Below, one piece after another: positions 319 through 20,305 of a stretch of DNA of 20,305 nucleotides; within the stretch, counting starts at the first letter, position 1; the number at the start of each line of letters is the position of its first letter. Made by a program: the position numbers and the translations under genes. Below the pieces are notes generated by a model. That model was given only the letters and a program-made list of their open reading frames with translations, did not search any database and was not told where the DNA came from. Source of the stretch: a virus; the IMG/VR virus record IMGVR_UViG_3300020187_000281, positions 1 to 20,305 of that record; one strand, written 5' to 3'.

Positions 319-855
319 CTATAGGTTTCTCTTTCTTGTTATTTTAATATACCAACCCCTCACTTTAACCGTACAATCTTCATCTGAACTTAAAGAAAAA
401 TGACCTCCTCCATTTAATGTTCCCTCATTCCCTATATAAAAGCTGTTATACTCTGTAATAGAGTGAGGCGCAGCACTCTTATAATTAAACTGTGTTATAA
501 ATGGTAGATTATAAGTGTTACTGCCTAAATTCAATTTAACATCTATTGCAGTGTTAGGTGTAGTTGTAGTAACTTCTATGTCTAATCTTATATCGACAAC
601 ATCTCCTAATGATAACATGCTCCAATCAAACTGACCTGTACTAGCATTCCATACATCCTCAATACCTCTAGGTGCATACTGTCTTGTAGAATAAGCCCCT
701 AATCCATCATTAGTCAATGCCACTTCTCCTGCCGACTCTAGCACTGTAATAGGGGTTACTAGAGTAGCTGTATCATTATAATCCAGAAACCCTGTCTCCC
801 AATAGCCATATAAATTATTGTGATGAGGAGTGTTAGTATTAGCTATAATAATCAT
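319..855 (-). CDS. Beta-rich putative virion surface / receptor-binding protein
   Basis: A 178-aa protein, the last gene of the late operon. It is rich in T, N, G and aromatic residues, has no membrane segment and no cysteine cluster apart from one Cys near the end, and looks all-beta. The C-terminal strands (residues 145-175, GHFSLSSDEDCTVKVRGWYI) resemble the end of small trimeric phage decoration or fibre domains. Its ATG overlaps the stop of the gene before it (ATGA, 852-855), so the two are translated as a pair. Position after the lysis genes and before the final terminator would suit an accessory virion protein such as a head fibre or secondary adhesin. That role is inferred from composition and place. 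I do not recognise a named family. Confidence 0.72.
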   Translation of the reverse strand: MIIIANTNTPHHNNLYGYWETGFLDYNDTATLVTPITVLESAGEVALTNDGLGAYSTRQYAPRGIEDVWNASTGQFDWSMLSLGDVVDIRLDIEVTTTTPNTAIDVKLNLGSNTYNLPFITQFNYKSAAPHSITEYNSFYIGNEGTLNGGGHFSLSSDEDCTVKVRGWYIKITRKRNL

Positions 856-1139
856 ACAATCACCTCTGGGGTTAGCTCAGCACCTAGTGTAGAGATAGCT
901 TTAGCCCATATTCTTAAACTTCCTGTTGGTATTATGGCAAGAGAATTAGGAAACCTATGAGGGTCTAGTATCTTACCTTTTGTATCATTATGAGATGGCT
1001 CAGAAGATTGTTCTATTAGTTTTATAGATCCAGTACCTTCATTATATAAAGAGAAAGCTGTGCCTACACTAATACCTGATTCTGTATTTACATCTACCCA
1101 AGATTGCCCTATAGATATATTCGGCAATGTCTCTGCCAT
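852..1139 (-). CDS. Small beta-rich protein, possible head fibre/decoration anchor
   Basis: A 95-aa protein with alternating hydrophobic and polar residues and many Gly/Ser/Thr, predicted to be beta-sheet (for example SWVDVNTESGISVGTAFSLY at 13-32 and SLRIWAKAISTLGAEL later). There is no signal peptide or transmembrane segment. The start is an ATG at 1139 with an AAAGGA ribosome site 7 bases upstream. It lies just after the terminator at 1163-1213, so its expression depends on read-through or on an unseen promoter, and it is coupled by an ATGA overlap to the next gene. Small proteins of this look occur in phage late regions, but I cannot name the family. An attachment partner for the downstream 178-aa protein is a reasonable guess. 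Confidence 0.7.
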   Translation of the reverse strand: MAETLPNISIGQSWVDVNTESGISVGTAFSLYNEGTGSIKLIEQSSEPSHNDTKGKILDPHRFPNSLAIIPTGSLRIWAKAISTLGAELTPEVIV

Positions 1140-1162
1140 ATTATTTTCCTTTATTTATATAT

Positions 1163-1213
1163 GAAAAAATCCCCTAGCTGATCTACGAGGAGGAGGACGT
1201 AGGGCTAGGGGAT
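1163..1213 (-). terminator. Strong intrinsic terminator after the receiver-domain gene
   Basis: On the minus strand a 10-bp stem ATCCCCTAGC (1213-1204) / GCTAGGGGAT (1178-1169) is followed directly by six T residues (1168-1163). Inside it a second stem CTACG/CGTAG (202-198 and 187-183, plus 1000) closes a loop reading TCCTCCTCCT on the transcript strand. This should end most transcripts after the lysis/accessory genes and lower expression of the two genes beyond it. Confidence 0.9.
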
Positions 1214-1227
1214 GGCCAGCGATGTTA

Positions 1228-1554
1228 TTAAACATCATTATTTTTTATTATTATTTTATCTAAGAACTTAGAGAAATTATCTTTAGGTATTACTTCAAAT
1301 TCACATTGCAAGTCATAAGATGTATAGATATATATCTGAGACTCTGGGTGTGTATCCTGTATTTCCCTTGCTAATTCTAAACCATCTTTAACACCTAATA
1401 GGTAGTCTACCAGAAAGATATCATAATCTACTAATTCTTTTACATCTATATCTTCATCTACTACTTTATATTTAATCACTTTCCTAGTTTCAAGTACAGC
1501 AGATATGAGATACCTGTGAGCTTCATTATCATCTATGTAGACTATTTTAATCAT
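1228..1554 (-). CDS. Stand-alone CheY-like receiver domain protein
   Basis: A 108-aa single-domain protein with the receiver-domain pattern of two-component response regulators. Strand 1 (IKIVYIDDN) carries the acidic pair D8/D9. Strand 3 ends in FLVD with the phospho-acceptor D50, followed by the typical G-x-x-DGLEL turn. Strand 4 ends in YTS with the conserved T78, and K91 fits the conserved lysine of strand 5. All catalytic positions are therefore present. The stretch between T78 and K91 is only about 12 residues, roughly nine shorter than in CheY, so helix 4 and the usual signalling face look trimmed. No DNA-binding, kinase or enzymatic output domain is attached. The start overlaps the previous gene by 8 bases, giving translational coupling, and a strong terminator follows. 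Role unknown; candidates are a phosphate sink, an interaction module with the upstream membrane proteins, or interference with host signalling or motility. Confidence 0.85.
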   Translation of the reverse strand: MIKIVYIDDNEAHRYLISAVLETRKVIKYKVVDEDIDVKELVDYDIFLVDYLLGVKDGLELAREIQDTHPESQIYIYTSYDLQCEFEVIPKDNFSKFLDKIIIKNNDV

Positions 1555-1954
1555 TCTTATTGCTCATCAAGTAATCCATTGTTTTACTAAACATTTCTGT
1601 CATCTGAGTATTAGCTGCTCTAGCTTCTAGTATTACCCTTTGAGATTCTTTATTTAGTTCATTAAGTTCAGCATTAATCTTTTTAGTGTCAACTAACTCT
1701 TTAGTTAGTTTAGCTTTATCTCCTAAACAAGTAGCTCTTTCTTGCTTAGCCAGTTCTAATTCTTCCTTAATGTATTCATCACTTACTTTCTGATCTTGTC
1801 TTGATTGTGTATTATGTTTCGCATTTTGTCTCACAATGACAAGTACACATATAGAGACAATAAGTAGTGCTAATATAACGATGGTATTACCTCCCCCTAC
1901 TTCCGCTCCTAAATTTGTTATTTTTTCTATTAGGATTCCTATTTTGTCTATCAT
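1547..1954 (-). CDS. Membrane-anchored coiled-coil protein
   Basis: A 135-aa protein with a short N-terminal amphipathic part (1-22), one transmembrane helix (about 24-41, TIVILALLIVSICVLVIV) and a long charged coiled coil (about 57-125) rich in K, E, L and A. Basic residues right after the membrane helix (R42, K47, H48, R52) suggest that the coil faces the cytoplasm, although charges are weak on the other side. One TM plus coiled coil is also the outline of an inner-membrane spanin (Rz). Against that, the charge bias favours the wrong orientation and no embedded lipoprotein-like partner frame of useful length is evident. It overlaps its upstream neighbour by ATGA and the receiver gene by 8 bases, so the three proteins are probably made together. 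Exact role unknown. Confidence 0.75.
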   Translation of the reverse strand: MIDKIGILIEKITNLGAEVGGGNTIVILALLIVSICVLVIVRQNAKHNTQSRQDQKVSDEYIKEELELAKQERATCLGDKAKLTKELVDTKKINAELNELNKESQRVILEARAANTQMTEMFSKTMDYLMSNKND

Positions 1955-2496
1955 TTAACCACACCTTTAAAACTGAGATAATAAGACAACACATAATCCC
2001 CAATAAACTGAGATATTCCGTTTCCGACATTTTTAGCCCTACCTTTTCTATCGTACAAGTAGTAAGCAGCTATTAAGTAGTAGGTTATTATCATGCAACT
2101 ATATATCCACATCTCTCCTAGTAGTATAGCAGGTGCATATCCAGTAGTGTCATATATAAGGTTACTTGCGTGTATGCCTAAATTATGATACCATTGAATA
2201 ATACCTAATACATTTATCACAAGTTCAACACCTAACAGTGTCATCACTGTACACCGTAGCCTTGATGGAGACAGAAGTGATAATAGTGTAACACCTATTG
2301 TAACACTGATAGCATTTATAACATAACCATATCCATCCCGTATTTCATACTCTAATAGGAAAGATAAACCCTTAGTTATTTCTGGTAGTAAAGTTGCTAA
2401 CACAAATACACCACAAACTAATACCCCTTGTTTAGTAGGATGGGTTAGTGTATAGTATATACAAAGGCATACTAAGGATAACCAAAGTATTAACAT
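1951..2496 (-). CDS. Polytopic membrane protein (about five segments)
   Basis: A 181-aa hydrophobic protein with likely membrane helices near residues 1-17, 23-40, 58-77, 82-101 and 122-148, and a basic segment after the last one (DRKGRAK), which would lie in the cytoplasm. Its C-terminus (ISQFIGDYVLSYYLSF) is amphipathic. I recognise no family. Its place directly downstream of the holin suggests a lysis-related or envelope function such as a second holin, an antiholin or a superinfection-exclusion protein. It begins the coupled cassette that continues with the coiled-coil and receiver proteins (ATGA overlap at 1951-1954). The start is an ATG at 2496 with AAGGGG 8 bases upstream, lying at the end of a possible 20-codon ORF. 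Confidence 0.72.
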   Translation of the reverse strand: MLILWLSLVCLCIYYTLTHPTKQGVLVCGVFVLATLLPEITKGLSFLLEYEIRDGYGYVINAISVTIGVTLLSLLSPSRLRCTVMTLLGVELVINVLGIIQWYHNLGIHASNLIYDTTGYAPAILLGEMWIYSCMIITYYLIAAYYLYDRKGRAKNVGNGISQFIGDYVLSYYLSFKGVVK

Positions 2497-2497
2497 A

Positions 2498-2560
2498 TTA
2501 ACTACCCCTTATTTTAGGCTTATCTGAGCTATCTCTTGAGGTTCTAGTTGGACTTGACAT
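2498..2560 (-). CDS. Possible 20-aa small ORF ahead of the membrane cassette
   Basis: A 20-codon frame, MSSPTRTSRDSSDKPKIRGS, starts at an ATG at 2560 preceded by AAAGG with a 6-base spacer, and ends in TAA one base before the ATG of the membrane protein at 2496. The peptide is Ser/Arg-rich and soluble. The ribosome site and exact abutment suggest translation, either as a leader that couples the next gene or as a small protein. Chance cannot be excluded for so short a frame. Confidence 0.4.
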   Translation of the reverse strand: MSSPTRTSRDSSDKPKIRGS

Positions 2561-2600
2561 TTGACACCTTTAACTTAATTAATTATTGATTTATAGTGTA

Positions 2601-2691
2601 ACCCTATCCATACCCTTAAAACATAGCCCTAGACGGGCTTAGATTCCATTCTGAGAGCATTTCTCTATTTATGTGTAGGGTAGGATAGGGT
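2601..2691 (-). other. Potential structured RNA element (nested stems)
   Basis: In the 238-base gap between the holin and the next gene, ACCCTATCC-A-TACCCT (2601-2616) pairs with AGGGTAGGATAGGGT (2677-2691): nine base pairs, one bulged base, six more pairs. The enclosed 60 bases contain a further hairpin AGCCC-TAGAC-GGGCT (2625-2639). Upstream on the transcript, CTTAGA/TCTAAG (2733-2728 and 2711-2706) forms another stem directly after the holin stop. No protein of useful length fits the gap apart from the 20-codon frame at its far end. It could be an mRNA processing or stabilising element, a regulatory leader for the membrane cassette, or a small RNA. Confidence 0.5.
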
Positions 2692-2734
2692 CTAAACTAC
2701 GTGAGCTTAGAGAGGCTTATAGGAGCTTCTAAGA

Positions 2735-3175
2735 TTAACCTATACTATCTGTCTGTGTTCTATTCTTCTTATCATAAGATCGCATCATTCCTATACCTAA
2801 CATGCCTGTAACCACAGAAAATAAAGCACCCGTCTCCAGAACAGGAGGTGCTGCTACATCTGGATATGCAAAAGCAATAACCCATAACAACAAAGGATAT
2901 AATATAAACTGGTAGGCCATAGCCACACCTCCTATCCACCCTATAAAAGGTCTCCACCCTGCTACAAATATACTCTTATGACCAGCCTCTACTGCATTTA
3001 CTTTGAGCTGTCCAAGCATTAGTTGTACATGCGTATTCAGCTTGTGCATATCTCCAGACTGCCTAAGCTCTTCTAGTTTTCTTACTTCCTCTGCCCTTTT
3101 AATAGGATCAGGCCATATACGCTCTATGGCACTCTTACCCAAATCAAATATAGCACTTAATGGATCAAAACTCAT
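2735..3175 (-). CDS. Holin, three-transmembrane type (GTA-holin-like)
   Basis: A 146-aa protein matching the 3-TM holin family first described for gene-transfer-agent release. The N-terminal half is charged and helical (IERIWPDPIKRAEEVRKLEE at 18-37, then QLKVNAVEAGHKS). It is followed by the hallmark SIFVAGWRPFIGWIGGVAMA (68-87), a second hydrophobic run (89-104, FILYPLLLWVIAFAY), and a third (117-132) ending in MLGIGMMRSYDK. It oligomerises in the inner membrane to release or activate the muralytic enzyme at the time of lysis. No endolysin is seen in the window. The start is an ATG at 3175 with GGAGGTGG just upstream, overlapping the previous stop (ATGA). Confidence 0.92.
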   Translation of the reverse strand: MSFDPLSAIFDLGKSAIERIWPDPIKRAEEVRKLEELRQSGDMHKLNTHVQLMLGQLKVNAVEAGHKSIFVAGWRPFIGWIGGVAMAYQFILYPLLLWVIAFAYPDVAAPPVLETGALFSVVTGMLGIGMMRSYDKKNRTQTDSIG

Positions 3176-3522
3176 ACCACCTCCTCACACTTATATTCTT
3201 TAACATAAGCCTTATAGCAATGTTTAGGATCATTAAATAACCAATCAATAAACCTCTCAAATGGATAAATATATGAACTCTCTAACCCTTTTGCTCTCTC
3301 TTCTGTTGCTTTCTTACCTGTCACTCCACTAACAGTTTTATATGTAGTAGAGTACAAAACAGATGCTCCCATTACATCTATTCCATGAGCTACCGCAAAT
3401 ATATAAAAGTTAAACTCTTCAAAGTCTGTTATTTTATATATAATGTTTCTTATAATAGCTAATGGAATTAGCAGAAGAGATGCAAATATAGCTAAGATGA
3501 GTAATCCTAAGTTTCTTATCAT
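3172..3522 (-). CDS. Small membrane protein upstream of the holin
   Basis: A 116-aa protein with a hydrophobic N-terminus forming one, perhaps two, membrane helices (LGLLILAIFASLLLIPLAII, residues 5-24) and a soluble C-terminal half with many charged and aromatic residues (ESSYIYPFERFIDWLFNDP near 81-99). No lipobox is seen, so a signal anchor is more likely than secretion. It overlaps the holin gene by ATGA, placing it in the lysis block. Antiholin, holin partner or an unrelated inner-membrane function are all possible. I do not recognise a family with confidence. Confidence 0.7.
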   Translation of the reverse strand: MIRNLGLLILAIFASLLLIPLAIIRNIIYKITDFEEFNFYIFAVAHGIDVMGASVLYSTTYKTVSGVTGKKATEERAKGLESSYIYPFERFIDWLFNDPKHCYKAYVKEYKCEEVV

Positions 3523-8858: not shown

Positions 8859-9899
8859 CTACTCCAACCTTTTTAATGTTAATTCTGTATCCCAAGCTGC
8901 ACCTTCGAAGTCCAAGGTGTACTTAATAGTCTCAACCTCATAACTACCTTTTAAACTAGAACTTGTATCTAACTTAACAATATTAGGTAATCGAATCCTA
9001 CCATCTAAGAATGTAACTGCTTTAATACCAGACTTGCTACCTTGTGTTATTGATATACCAGCAGTATTCTTCAAAGGTTTAACTGGATGTTTCAATAAAG
9101 AGTCTGTTAATGTGAAACTTTCTTTCTTCTTTACATGTCCGTATAGCGAGCCATCTGGCTGTATGTATAGTTTACCTAAGTAAATATAGTATATATAATT
9201 AATCTCCTTGAGTACTTTAGAGAGTTCCTGTAGGACATTTCCTTCATACACTCTTCCATTAGGGAGTGTTTTTAATAGAGGTTCTAAGTACTCAAAATCA
9301 GACTCTTGTGATCTTCTCGATGCTAGTAATGTCCTGCTAATGGTATAAGGTCTATATATAACAGGGCGAGGATCTGGTAATCCTTCGTAGAACTCTCCTA
9401 GTGGGAGTCCATTTTCACCTAACGTGTTTACTAAGCTCTTAATAAGTGTCTTATAAGTTGTTTTAGGAGCTACTGAACCGCTAACTCTAAGATTACTTAT
9501 TATATTCTGAGAGTCTTTACAGACAATAGTTGTTACACTGTCCTTACCTCTATTCTCAAAGGCTGTAAATACTGTTGTAATATCCCCTGTAAATATGACA
9601 GGTAAATCAGAAGATGAGTTATATCCTGCTTTTAATATAACCCTATCATTCTGCCTTATACTCTCTTGGGATTTTTCTGAGATATTGTATATCTTAATAA
9701 TAACAGCGCCGTTAGTTCCAGATTTTGTGTAAGTTATAGTAGTAGTAAAATGATGCTCTGTTAATACTATTGCACCTGCTGTTTGCTTAGTGAAGTTATT
9801 TATAAGACCTGTACTACTAATTTCGTTTTGATTTATTGATACATCTTCTGGTATAAATCTGGCAACTGATAACTCATACTTTCTTATCCAGTTAGTCAC
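8859..9899 (-). CDS. Baseplate hub protein (gpD / gp27-like)
   Basis: A hub protein of about 346 aa. It shows strand-rich N-terminal domains (TTTITYTKSGTNGAVIIKIY, ILKAGY-x-x-x-x-x-LPVIFTGDI), a helical insertion with SQESDFEYLEPLLKTLPNGR, and a C-terminal region with LYIQPDG and GSYEVETIKYTLDF before the final LTLKRLE. This matches phage hub proteins that hold the spike trimer. I chose the GTG at 9899, giving MTNWIRKYEL, because GAGG (9909-9906) lies 6 bases ahead. An ATG at 9911 would add four residues but has a poor ribosome site and overlaps the upstream gene by 20 bases. Confidence 0.82.
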   Translation of the reverse strand: MTNWIRKYELSVARFIPEDVSINQNEISSTGLINNFTKQTAGAIVLTEHHFTTTITYTKSGTNGAVIIKIYNISEKSQESIRQNDRVILKAGYNSSSDLPVIFTGDITTVFTAFENRGKDSVTTIVCKDSQNIISNLRVSGSVAPKTTYKTLIKSLVNTLGENGLPLGEFYEGLPDPRPVIYRPYTISRTLLASRRSQESDFEYLEPLLKTLPNGRVYEGNVLQELSKVLKEINYIYYIYLGKLYIQPDGSLYGHVKKKESFTLTDSLLKHPVKPLKNTAGISITQGSKSGIKAVTFLDGRIRLPNIVKLDTSSSLKGSYEVETIKYTLDFEGAAWDTELTLKRLE

Positions 9900-10233
9900 T
9901 AAACACCTCATCTATCTCTGAAGGTGTAAAATATATAAGCTCATAGTCTAAGTCTACACCTAAGTTATCAAAACCTACTGGCGTTGTAGTATTACTCTTT
10001 CTAAAACAGATAATATCGCCTTCAAAATTATCTAATCTATATCTGGACAATAGACTTTGATTTTCCATAACCTTTACACCTAACTTCAATGCTGTGCTAT
10101 CTGAATTGTATATATCGAAATACCACCTACTGTCCCTACTATTAAATCTAAACTTAAAGTCATAAGTATTTAATCCTAACGATACATTAAATAAATCAGT
10201 GGTTGTGGATGGCACTGGTATGATACTTGGCAT
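9892..10233 (-). CDS. Baseplate plug protein (Pam3 gp18 / DUF6983-like)
   Basis: A 113-aa beta protein. The pattern YDFKFRFNSRDSRWYFDIYN (residues 24-43), LKLGVKVMENQSLLSRYR and FDNLGVDLDYELIYF is that of the small plug protein described in the cyanophage Pam3 baseplate and found beside hub genes in many phages. It is thought to fill the hub lumen below the tape measure. It lies between the Dit-like adaptor and the hub, as expected. The ribosome site is TAGG, 6 bases before the ATG. Confidence 0.78.
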   Translation of the reverse strand: MPSIIPVPSTTTDLFNVSLGLNTYDFKFRFNSRDSRWYFDIYNSDSTALKLGVKVMENQSLLSRYRLDNFEGDIICFRKSNTTTPVGFDNLGVDLDYELIYFTPSEIDEVFSD

Positions 10234-19599: not shown

Positions 19600-19884
19600 T
19601 TCGTTTCCTTTAGTCAAGTTTTCATCTTCCCCTGCATCACTCTTGACAGAGGAGAGGGATTGGGCATCACCACCTTGTTTATACAAGGGAGTAAATTCTT
19701 CACCATACTTTTCTAGTAGGGCTGTTTGTTCTTCTGTTAAATCTTCTTTACACGTATATCTATTCTTTAATAAGATAGTTTCCATACCAGAAGCAGCGAA
19801 TCCTTGGGACTCATCTGTCATTGATATTTCAGATATATCTAAGTCATAAAGATTAGCCTTCGCTTTGCCATTAGATTCACTCAT
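19252..19884 (-). CDS. Scaffold-like head protein, long form
   Basis: A 210-aa acidic protein. Residues 1-70 are a compact N-terminal part (SMTDESQGFAASGMETILLK, CKEDLTEEQTALLEKYGEEF) that reads like the C-terminal appendix of a protease gene. Residues 70-95 are a Ser/Asp/Glu linker, and 96-210 are a coiled-coil scaffold region. The gene overlaps the protease by 8 bases (ATGAGTGA). It probably guides capsid assembly and is removed by the protease. A prohead protease fusion or delivery domain is an alternative reading of the N-terminal part. Confidence 0.75.
   Translation of the reverse strand: MSESNGKAKANLYDLDISEISMTDESQGFAASGMETILLKNRYTCKEDLTEEQTALLEKYGEEFTPLYKQGGDAQSLSSVKSDAGEDENLTKGNEMSDQETSALQKAQDEIATLKKALVSKELGAELSKFNLSNVDKVVDAMQGVSAEERTELTKAFEELYTTKVDVEKAAKQDQEIDKELGYEGQPEQDVEKSLNEKIAEKVAKLQEGA
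19606..19609 (-). promoter_or_regulatory. Internal ribosome binding site in the scaffold gene
   Basis: CTAAAGGAAACGAAATG: AGGA with a 6-base spacer to the in-frame ATG at 19599, located where the linker ends and the coiled coil begins. Confidence 0.55.
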
Positions 19885-20305
19885 CTTCTATCTCCAATTT
19901 AATACCTTTAGCTCCGAAAGATGGTGCGCCTAATACACCAGATTTTTTATCTTCCCAAGCTAACTTATTATTCCATTTAGCAGATATAAGAGGAGTACCC
20001 GCTTTAACAAATTTATTACCTAATGTAGCATCTACTTCTTGAACCCAAGCTCTTTGCCAAGTAAAAGTGTTAGTCTTGTGTGCGTGGAATAAACCAGATG
20101 GTAATGTACCTTTATCAATCTTCTGATTAATATTATCTACAGCTTTTCTAACCTCTTCTAATGATATAGTATCTCCATGTAGATCAACTTCACCAGCAGG
20201 TCGCCAGATAGGTTCAATAGAGATCATCTGCTCATCGTTGAAATCTTTAAGTAATTCAACTTCTTTCTTTTTAAAATACTTATCTAAGAAAGAAAATAAA
20301 CTCTT
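19877..20305 (-). CDS. Prohead protease, XkdF-like (5' end outside window)
   Basis: A frame of 142 codons plus stop that stays open to the right edge. The ATG at 20227 lacks a ribosome site, and the 26 codons upstream (KSLFSFLDKYFKKKEVELLK and onward) are in frame, so the true start is beyond the window. EPIWRPAGEVDLHGDTISLE, SGLFHAHKTNTFTWQ, then AGTPLISAKWNNKLAWEDKK and SGVLGAPSFGAKGIKLEIED follow the XkdF (peptidase S78_2) pattern: a DxHGD-type strand, a central His in FHAH, and a KSG-x-x-x-x-x-SFGAKG end like KSGELTGFSIGG. The His in HAH and the Ser in PSFG are the probable catalytic pair. The enzyme would cleave scaffold and capsid precursors during head maturation. Confidence 0.78.
   Translation of the reverse strand, partial: KSLFSFLDKYFKKKEVELLKDFNDEQMISIEPIWRPAGEVDLHGDTISLEEVRKAVDNINQKIDKGTLPSGLFHAHKTNTFTWQRAWVQEVDATLGNKFVKAGTPLISAKWNNKLAWEDKKSGVLGAPSFGAKGIKLEIEDE

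Follow-up and report, generated by a model that had tools for sequence, protein, structure and literature searches.

Background

The question raised by this locus is what a phage would do with a response regulator receiver domain that has no output domain. The stretch of DNA analyzed, designated the window, comprises the 20,305 bases of an IMG/VR virus record. It is a fragment that encodes a contractile-tail phage (it carries a tail sheath gene) of marine type, whose nearest named relative by capsid and sheath is Alteromonas phage V22. An initial annotation, made from the letters alone, described a complete receiver in a lysis or accessory block, knew of nothing comparable among the standard phage late genes, and listed a phosphate sink, a decoy of host kinases or chemotaxis and a sensor of host state that tunes lysis as possible roles.

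The supposed lack of precedent was too strong a statement. Late genes that encode a receiver alone have been recorded in the Alteromonas phages V22 (PMC7289586), A5 (PMC10579305) and R8W (PMC8228385); those of V22 and A5 were labelled CheY-like auxiliary genes in the respective papers, and R8W gp48 was published as PhoB. At 153 residues, however, gp48 is too short to contain both a receiver and a PhoB-type DNA-binding domain. V22 gp30 is a "hybrid histidine kinase" in GenBank, yet it has 149 residues and a confident match to the receiver family only. The new part of the present study is therefore not the receiver-only gene itself but its constant arrangement with a gene for a membrane-anchored coiled-coil protein, TM-CC, a pairing absent from the initial annotation and of which no description was found in a literature search that largely did not reach subscription journals.

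Results

Table 1. Features of the window around the receiver gene
Feature	Position	Strand	Evidence
Receiver-only response regulator	1228..1554	(-)	ORF, PF00072, AlphaFold2 fold, Foldseek, L014 homolog
TM-CC, membrane-anchored coiled-coil protein, 135 aa	1547..1954	(-)	Hydropathy and charge, L014 homolog, recurrence of the arrangement at 12 further loci
Polytopic membrane protein, 181 aa	1951..2496	(-)	42% identical homolog in L014
Holin, GTA_holin_3TM family	2735..3175	(-)	PF11351, E 7.9e-21; phrog_3427, E 2.9e-33
Intrinsic-terminator-like hairpin and T run	1169..1213	(-)	RNA fold -21.7 kcal/mol, z -2.65

The receiver and its predicted fold

The receiver gene runs from ATG to stop in a clean frame and encodes 108 residues with the complete phosphorylation set, D8, D9, D50, T78 and K91, as first described. 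The Pfam profile PF00072 (Response_reg) matched residues 4-100 with an E value of 7.8e-8 and a score of 32.9 bits; the curated cut-off, 30.2 bits, is lower. This was the only Pfam domain in the protein, which has no output domain and, by Pfam, no DNA-binding domain. The segment between T78 and K91 had been described as about nine residues short; the spacing is 13 residues, compared with 22 in V22 gp30 (S83-K105), nine fewer.

The AlphaFold2 model, calculated from a 7-sequence alignment (pLDDT 88.8, pTM 0.82), has strands at residues 2-7, 27-32, 46-50, 73-78 and 87-90 and helices at 11-23, 58-68 and 91-107. The five strands are in receiver order, with α4 absent, α2 vestigial and β5 short, and the five key residues sit at the C-terminal ends of strands 1, 3, 4 and 5. 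A Foldseek search of the PDB with this model returned receivers almost throughout, CheY and CheY4 among them. The model falls short of the canonical (β/α)5 fold in that α4 is missing, and for the same reason lacks the complete α4-β5-α5 face with which CheY binds FliM. FATGUY receivers carry a PFxFATG motif at β4; this motif is absent from the window receiver, in which β4 reads QIYIYTSYD. The FATGUY family has been described in PMC9981736, which also records solved receivers without α4, so that this helix is not obligatory. On sequence and modeling, the gene product is a receiver domain protein with a predicted α4-less fold.

One relative, designated L014, was reached through its baseplate protein, 93% identical to that of the window. 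Its receiver is about 40-41% identical to the window receiver over 102 residues, scores 20.5 bits against PF00072, below the cut-off, is shortened in the same way and is likewise predicted to fold without helix 4, indicating that the short β4-β5 segment is a property of the family and not an assembly error. Single-protein scans found no close relatives of the window receiver or of its TM-CC, and no relatives of the receiver were found in a collection of genome contigs. By BLASTP, V22 gp30 did not match the window receiver, the A5 receiver gave a marginal match (31% over 70 residues, E 2.7e-4), and weak links led via L014 to the receivers of L027 and L190. At genome scale the V22-type receiver matched ordinary bacterial regulators, and many "phage" tblastn matches were set aside as unannotated fragments resembling host contamination.

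Neighboring genes in the window

The holin (Table 1), 67% identical to that of Vibrio phage D93, lies three genes upstream of the receiver, in agreement with the initial placement in a lysis or accessory block. The TM-CC gene overlaps the start of the receiver gene by 8 nt and is itself overlapped by 4 nt by the gene for the polytopic membrane protein. The window TM-CC has one membrane segment at about residues 25-41 and a charged C-terminal part, with one Lys or Arg before the segment and four after it, so that the C-terminus is predicted to be cytoplasmic; it is probably the partner of the receiver. The polytopic protein matched nothing in phages, Pfam or NCBIfam, and its sole homolog was found in L014, where the gene is overlapped by a second TM-CC paralog as it is by TM-CC in the window; it possibly belongs to the same module. 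The terminator-like hairpin lies directly 3' of the receiver gene, and 3 of 200 shuffled sequences folded equally well. None of the genes directly downstream of the receiver was recognizable as a lysis gene, and no Rz/Rz1 pair was found in the window, nor any lipobox ORF or Rz match downstream of the receiver.

Two other features of the window were recorded. A long inverted repeat (CCCTATCCTACCC / GGGTATGGATAGGG; z -1.7) lies at 2601-2692, between the holin gene and the module. At the contig end, just before the capsid genes, a 116-residue ORF (19877-20227, minus strand) matches phrog_1530, labelled DNA methyltransferase, only at profile positions 247-357.

A TM-CC gene precedes the receiver gene in three lineages

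In all 14 loci, a TM-CC gene stands immediately before the receiver gene, with a spacing of -11 to +8 nt, in genomes that span myo-, podo- and siphophages. The receivers fall into three sequence lineages, 1) V22-like, including A5, L027, L187 and L190, 2) R9Y1, R9Y3, R8W and V19, and 3) the window and L014. The loss of α4 and the short receiver are confined to the third, and the other two keep the helix. BLASTP groups the TM-CC proteins as it does their receivers (V22-like; R9Y1, R9Y3 and R8W; window and L014), the 93-residue TM-CC of V19 being assigned by position only. These proteins have 93-135 residues and a single N-terminal membrane segment; the rest of the chain is charged and was taken as a coiled coil from composition and a reading of the sequence rather than from a dedicated predictor. 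Lys and Arg are more numerous on the C-terminal side of the membrane segment than on its N-terminal side in 14/14, the reverse of the neighboring i-spanins; by this simple charge count, the coiled coil is predicted to be cytoplasmic and accessible to a soluble receiver. In the V22 group the membrane segments are only weakly hydrophobic. Where divergence was measurable, pN/pS was 0.07 to 0.43 for both genes, indicating purifying selection.

The surroundings place the receivers of V22-like phages, R9Y1, R9Y3 and R8W in or beside lysis blocks. V22 gp30 follows the tail fiber, chaperone and amidase genes and the small coiled-coil gene gp29, and in V22-like loci an Rz-like i-spanin gene with a nested lipoprotein frame overlaps or adjoins the receiver gene (the V22 i-spanin matches phrog_4297, E 8.5e-6). 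The receiver overlaps the lysozyme gene by 4 nt in R9Y1 and R9Y3. In R8W it lies between a holin gene, just upstream, and the terminase genes. All three of these receivers overlap the preceding TM-CC gene by 4 nt. The published label "host recognition module" does not convey this lysis-block setting. Lysis-type neighbors were found in most of the loci.

Small membrane proteins are abundant in lysis cassettes, so the adjacency of TM-CC could partly reflect location. The base rate of TM-CC-like genes was 2.7% (16/597 predicted genes), a value that is indicative only since the criterion was set after the examples were known. Similar TM-CC genes occur without a receiver in L016 and L025, so TM-CC has a role independent of the receiver.

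The comparison of the window with L014 showed how the pair behaves when its surroundings change. Upstream genes are 84-93% identical, and identity falls to 31-46% where the terminal block begins (window 319-3522, L014 4666-8294): 31% for TM-CC, about 40% for the receiver and 45-46% for the two small genes after them. Within the block the order of the flanking genes has changed and the two have different holins, yet both have kept the TM-CC/receiver pair with its 8-nt overlap. The block has the appearance of a recombination hot spot.

Several observations were made at related loci. In L015, a more distant relative, a 181-residue protein (9297-9842, plus strand), PAS-like by eye and without a Pfam match, directly precedes a TM-CC-like gene at 9806-10138, whereas the other loci have a receiver after TM-CC. 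An unannotated lipoprotein frame with the motif LILTGC (L004:4493-4792, plus strand) starts inside V22 gp31 and extends beyond it; it is likely to be an Rz1 o-spanin. A near-identical 244-residue ORF lies between the o-spanin and holin genes of two V22-like phages (L008:7123-7857 and L190:6120-6854) and is possibly a homing endonuclease.

Phosphorylation residues and the source of phosphate

The phosphorylation residues are retained in 13/14 receivers at about 20% identity. The exception is the V19 receiver (L012:4992-5444, plus strand), in which neither the phospho-Asp (the segment reads LFIPAS) nor the Lys remains; the gene for this phage pseudo-receiver still forms a pair with a TM-CC gene. 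The L014 receiver has Glu at the first acidic position.

No HATPase_c domain scored above the cut-off in the 12 phage records searched, which included V22, A5, R9Y1, R9Y3 and V19 but not R8W. A phage-borne kinase was rejected, the single match, in A5, being sub-threshold. If the receiver is phosphorylated, its phosphate would thus be supplied by kinases of the host or by small-molecule donors. A phospho-histidine in TM-CC was likewise rejected because no His is conserved; L187 has Gln at the position of the V22 His, and the L014 protein lacks His47 of the window.

Discussion

The only feature that never varies among these loci is the neighboring TM-CC gene, and for this reason action on a membrane partner is the favored interpretation. 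We tentatively propose, at somewhat less than even confidence, that the receiver is the late-made half of a two-protein module with TM-CC that tunes a membrane or lysis step to host signaling. The receiver would be made late in infection, alongside the TM-CC encoded just before it, and D50 would be loaded by a host histidine kinase or acetyl phosphate. Either the charged or the uncharged form would bind the cytoplasmic coiled coil, and binding would alter the assembly of TM-CC or its contact with the holin/spanin machinery, adjusting the membrane or lysis step to the signaling state of the host. There is a precedent in EpsW~P, which binds a membrane enzyme (PMC12802240). Of the roles first listed, the sensor of host state, acting on a lysis or membrane partner, thus gains from the conserved pairing, and the reading of a receiver-only protein without helix 4 in a late or lysis block stands, although not its lack of precedent.

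The strongest competing explanation is a phosphate sink or hub, in which the receiver drains host histidine kinases or phosphotransfer proteins and silences the host response late in infection, with TM-CC merely tethering it near membrane kinases. LovR is an example of a sink and MrrA of a hub (PMC5964349), and CckA Rec and Sma0114, which have no ordered α4, are phosphorelay intermediates that work independently of the α4-β5-α5 face (PMC9981736), a face that the window receiver has itself lost while its phosphorylation pocket remains intact. The absence of a kinase domain above the cut-off in the searched phages is also consistent with this mechanism, and phages are known to target host kinases, for example through PIT4 (PMC10714779). 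However, a sink accounts neither for the pairing with TM-CC in the lysis blocks of three lineages nor for the retention of α4 in two of them, and it is considered rather unlikely. The two actions, on a membrane partner and as a sink, are compatible and not exclusive.

Less probable still is an adaptor in which the receiver fold persists as a TM-CC-binding domain and phosphorylation is now irrelevant. The substitutions in V19 and L014 are what such an adaptor would allow, as is the removal of the usual switch by the α4 deletion, but drift would not have kept the Asp, Thr/Ser and Lys in 13/14 receivers that have diverged to about 20% identity. Finally, the receiver could act as a CheY-like decoy that interferes with host chemotaxis or with a DNA-binding regulator, as suggested by the resemblance to CheY and CheY4 and by the names CheY-like and PhoB given to relatives; this is very improbable because the missing α4 and short β5 truncate the FliM-type and OmpR-type dimer surface and the 108 residues include no DNA-binding domain.

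The timing of phage lysis is usually attributed to holin mutation, antiholins and superinfection. The membrane-partner interpretation can be extended to a kinase-less two-gene module that unrelated phages have repeatedly acquired and that couples host histidine-kinase signaling directly to holin or spanin action. This wider proposal is doubtful; if it is true, lysis timing would read the two-component state of the host, and a cytoplasm-facing coiled coil with a receiver in lysis blocks would make that reading post-translational. In cultured phages such as V22, A5, R8W and R9Y1, receiver genes filed as auxiliary metabolic or PhoB genes could then be lysis-block genes.

Comparison with known systems

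V22 gp30 and A5 gp11 resemble the window gene in being receiver-only late genes directly after a TM-CC gene, downstream of tail fiber and chaperone genes, in phages with no kinase ATPase domain above the cut-off; unlike it, they keep α4, are longer by about 40 residues and have Rz/Rz1 spanin genes after them. R8W gp48 and the R9Y1 and R9Y3 genes also encode receiver-only proteins after TM-CC, next to a holin or lysozyme gene, but these are canonical-length receivers with α4 and their TM-CC belongs to another sequence lineage.

Among bacterial proteins, CckA Rec and Sma0114 share with the window receiver the lack of an ordered α4 and a retained phosphorylation site (PMC9981736). These two, MrrA and other phosphorelay-intermediate receivers mostly have the FATGUY motif where the window has IYTSY, and the linker that is disordered in CckA Rec and Sma0114 is deleted by nine residues in the window. 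In phage N4, the pinholin gp63 and the lysis regulator gp62 (PMC12642591) show that a soluble region beside a single membrane segment can control lysis timing; the "Receiver domain" of gp63 was rejected as a relative, since the likeness is in name only and the domain does not have the response-regulator fold. EpsW (PMC12802240) is a bacterial, chromosomally encoded protein whose partner is a glycosyl transferase, and it is, as proposed for the window protein, a receiver-only protein that acts on a membrane-bound partner.
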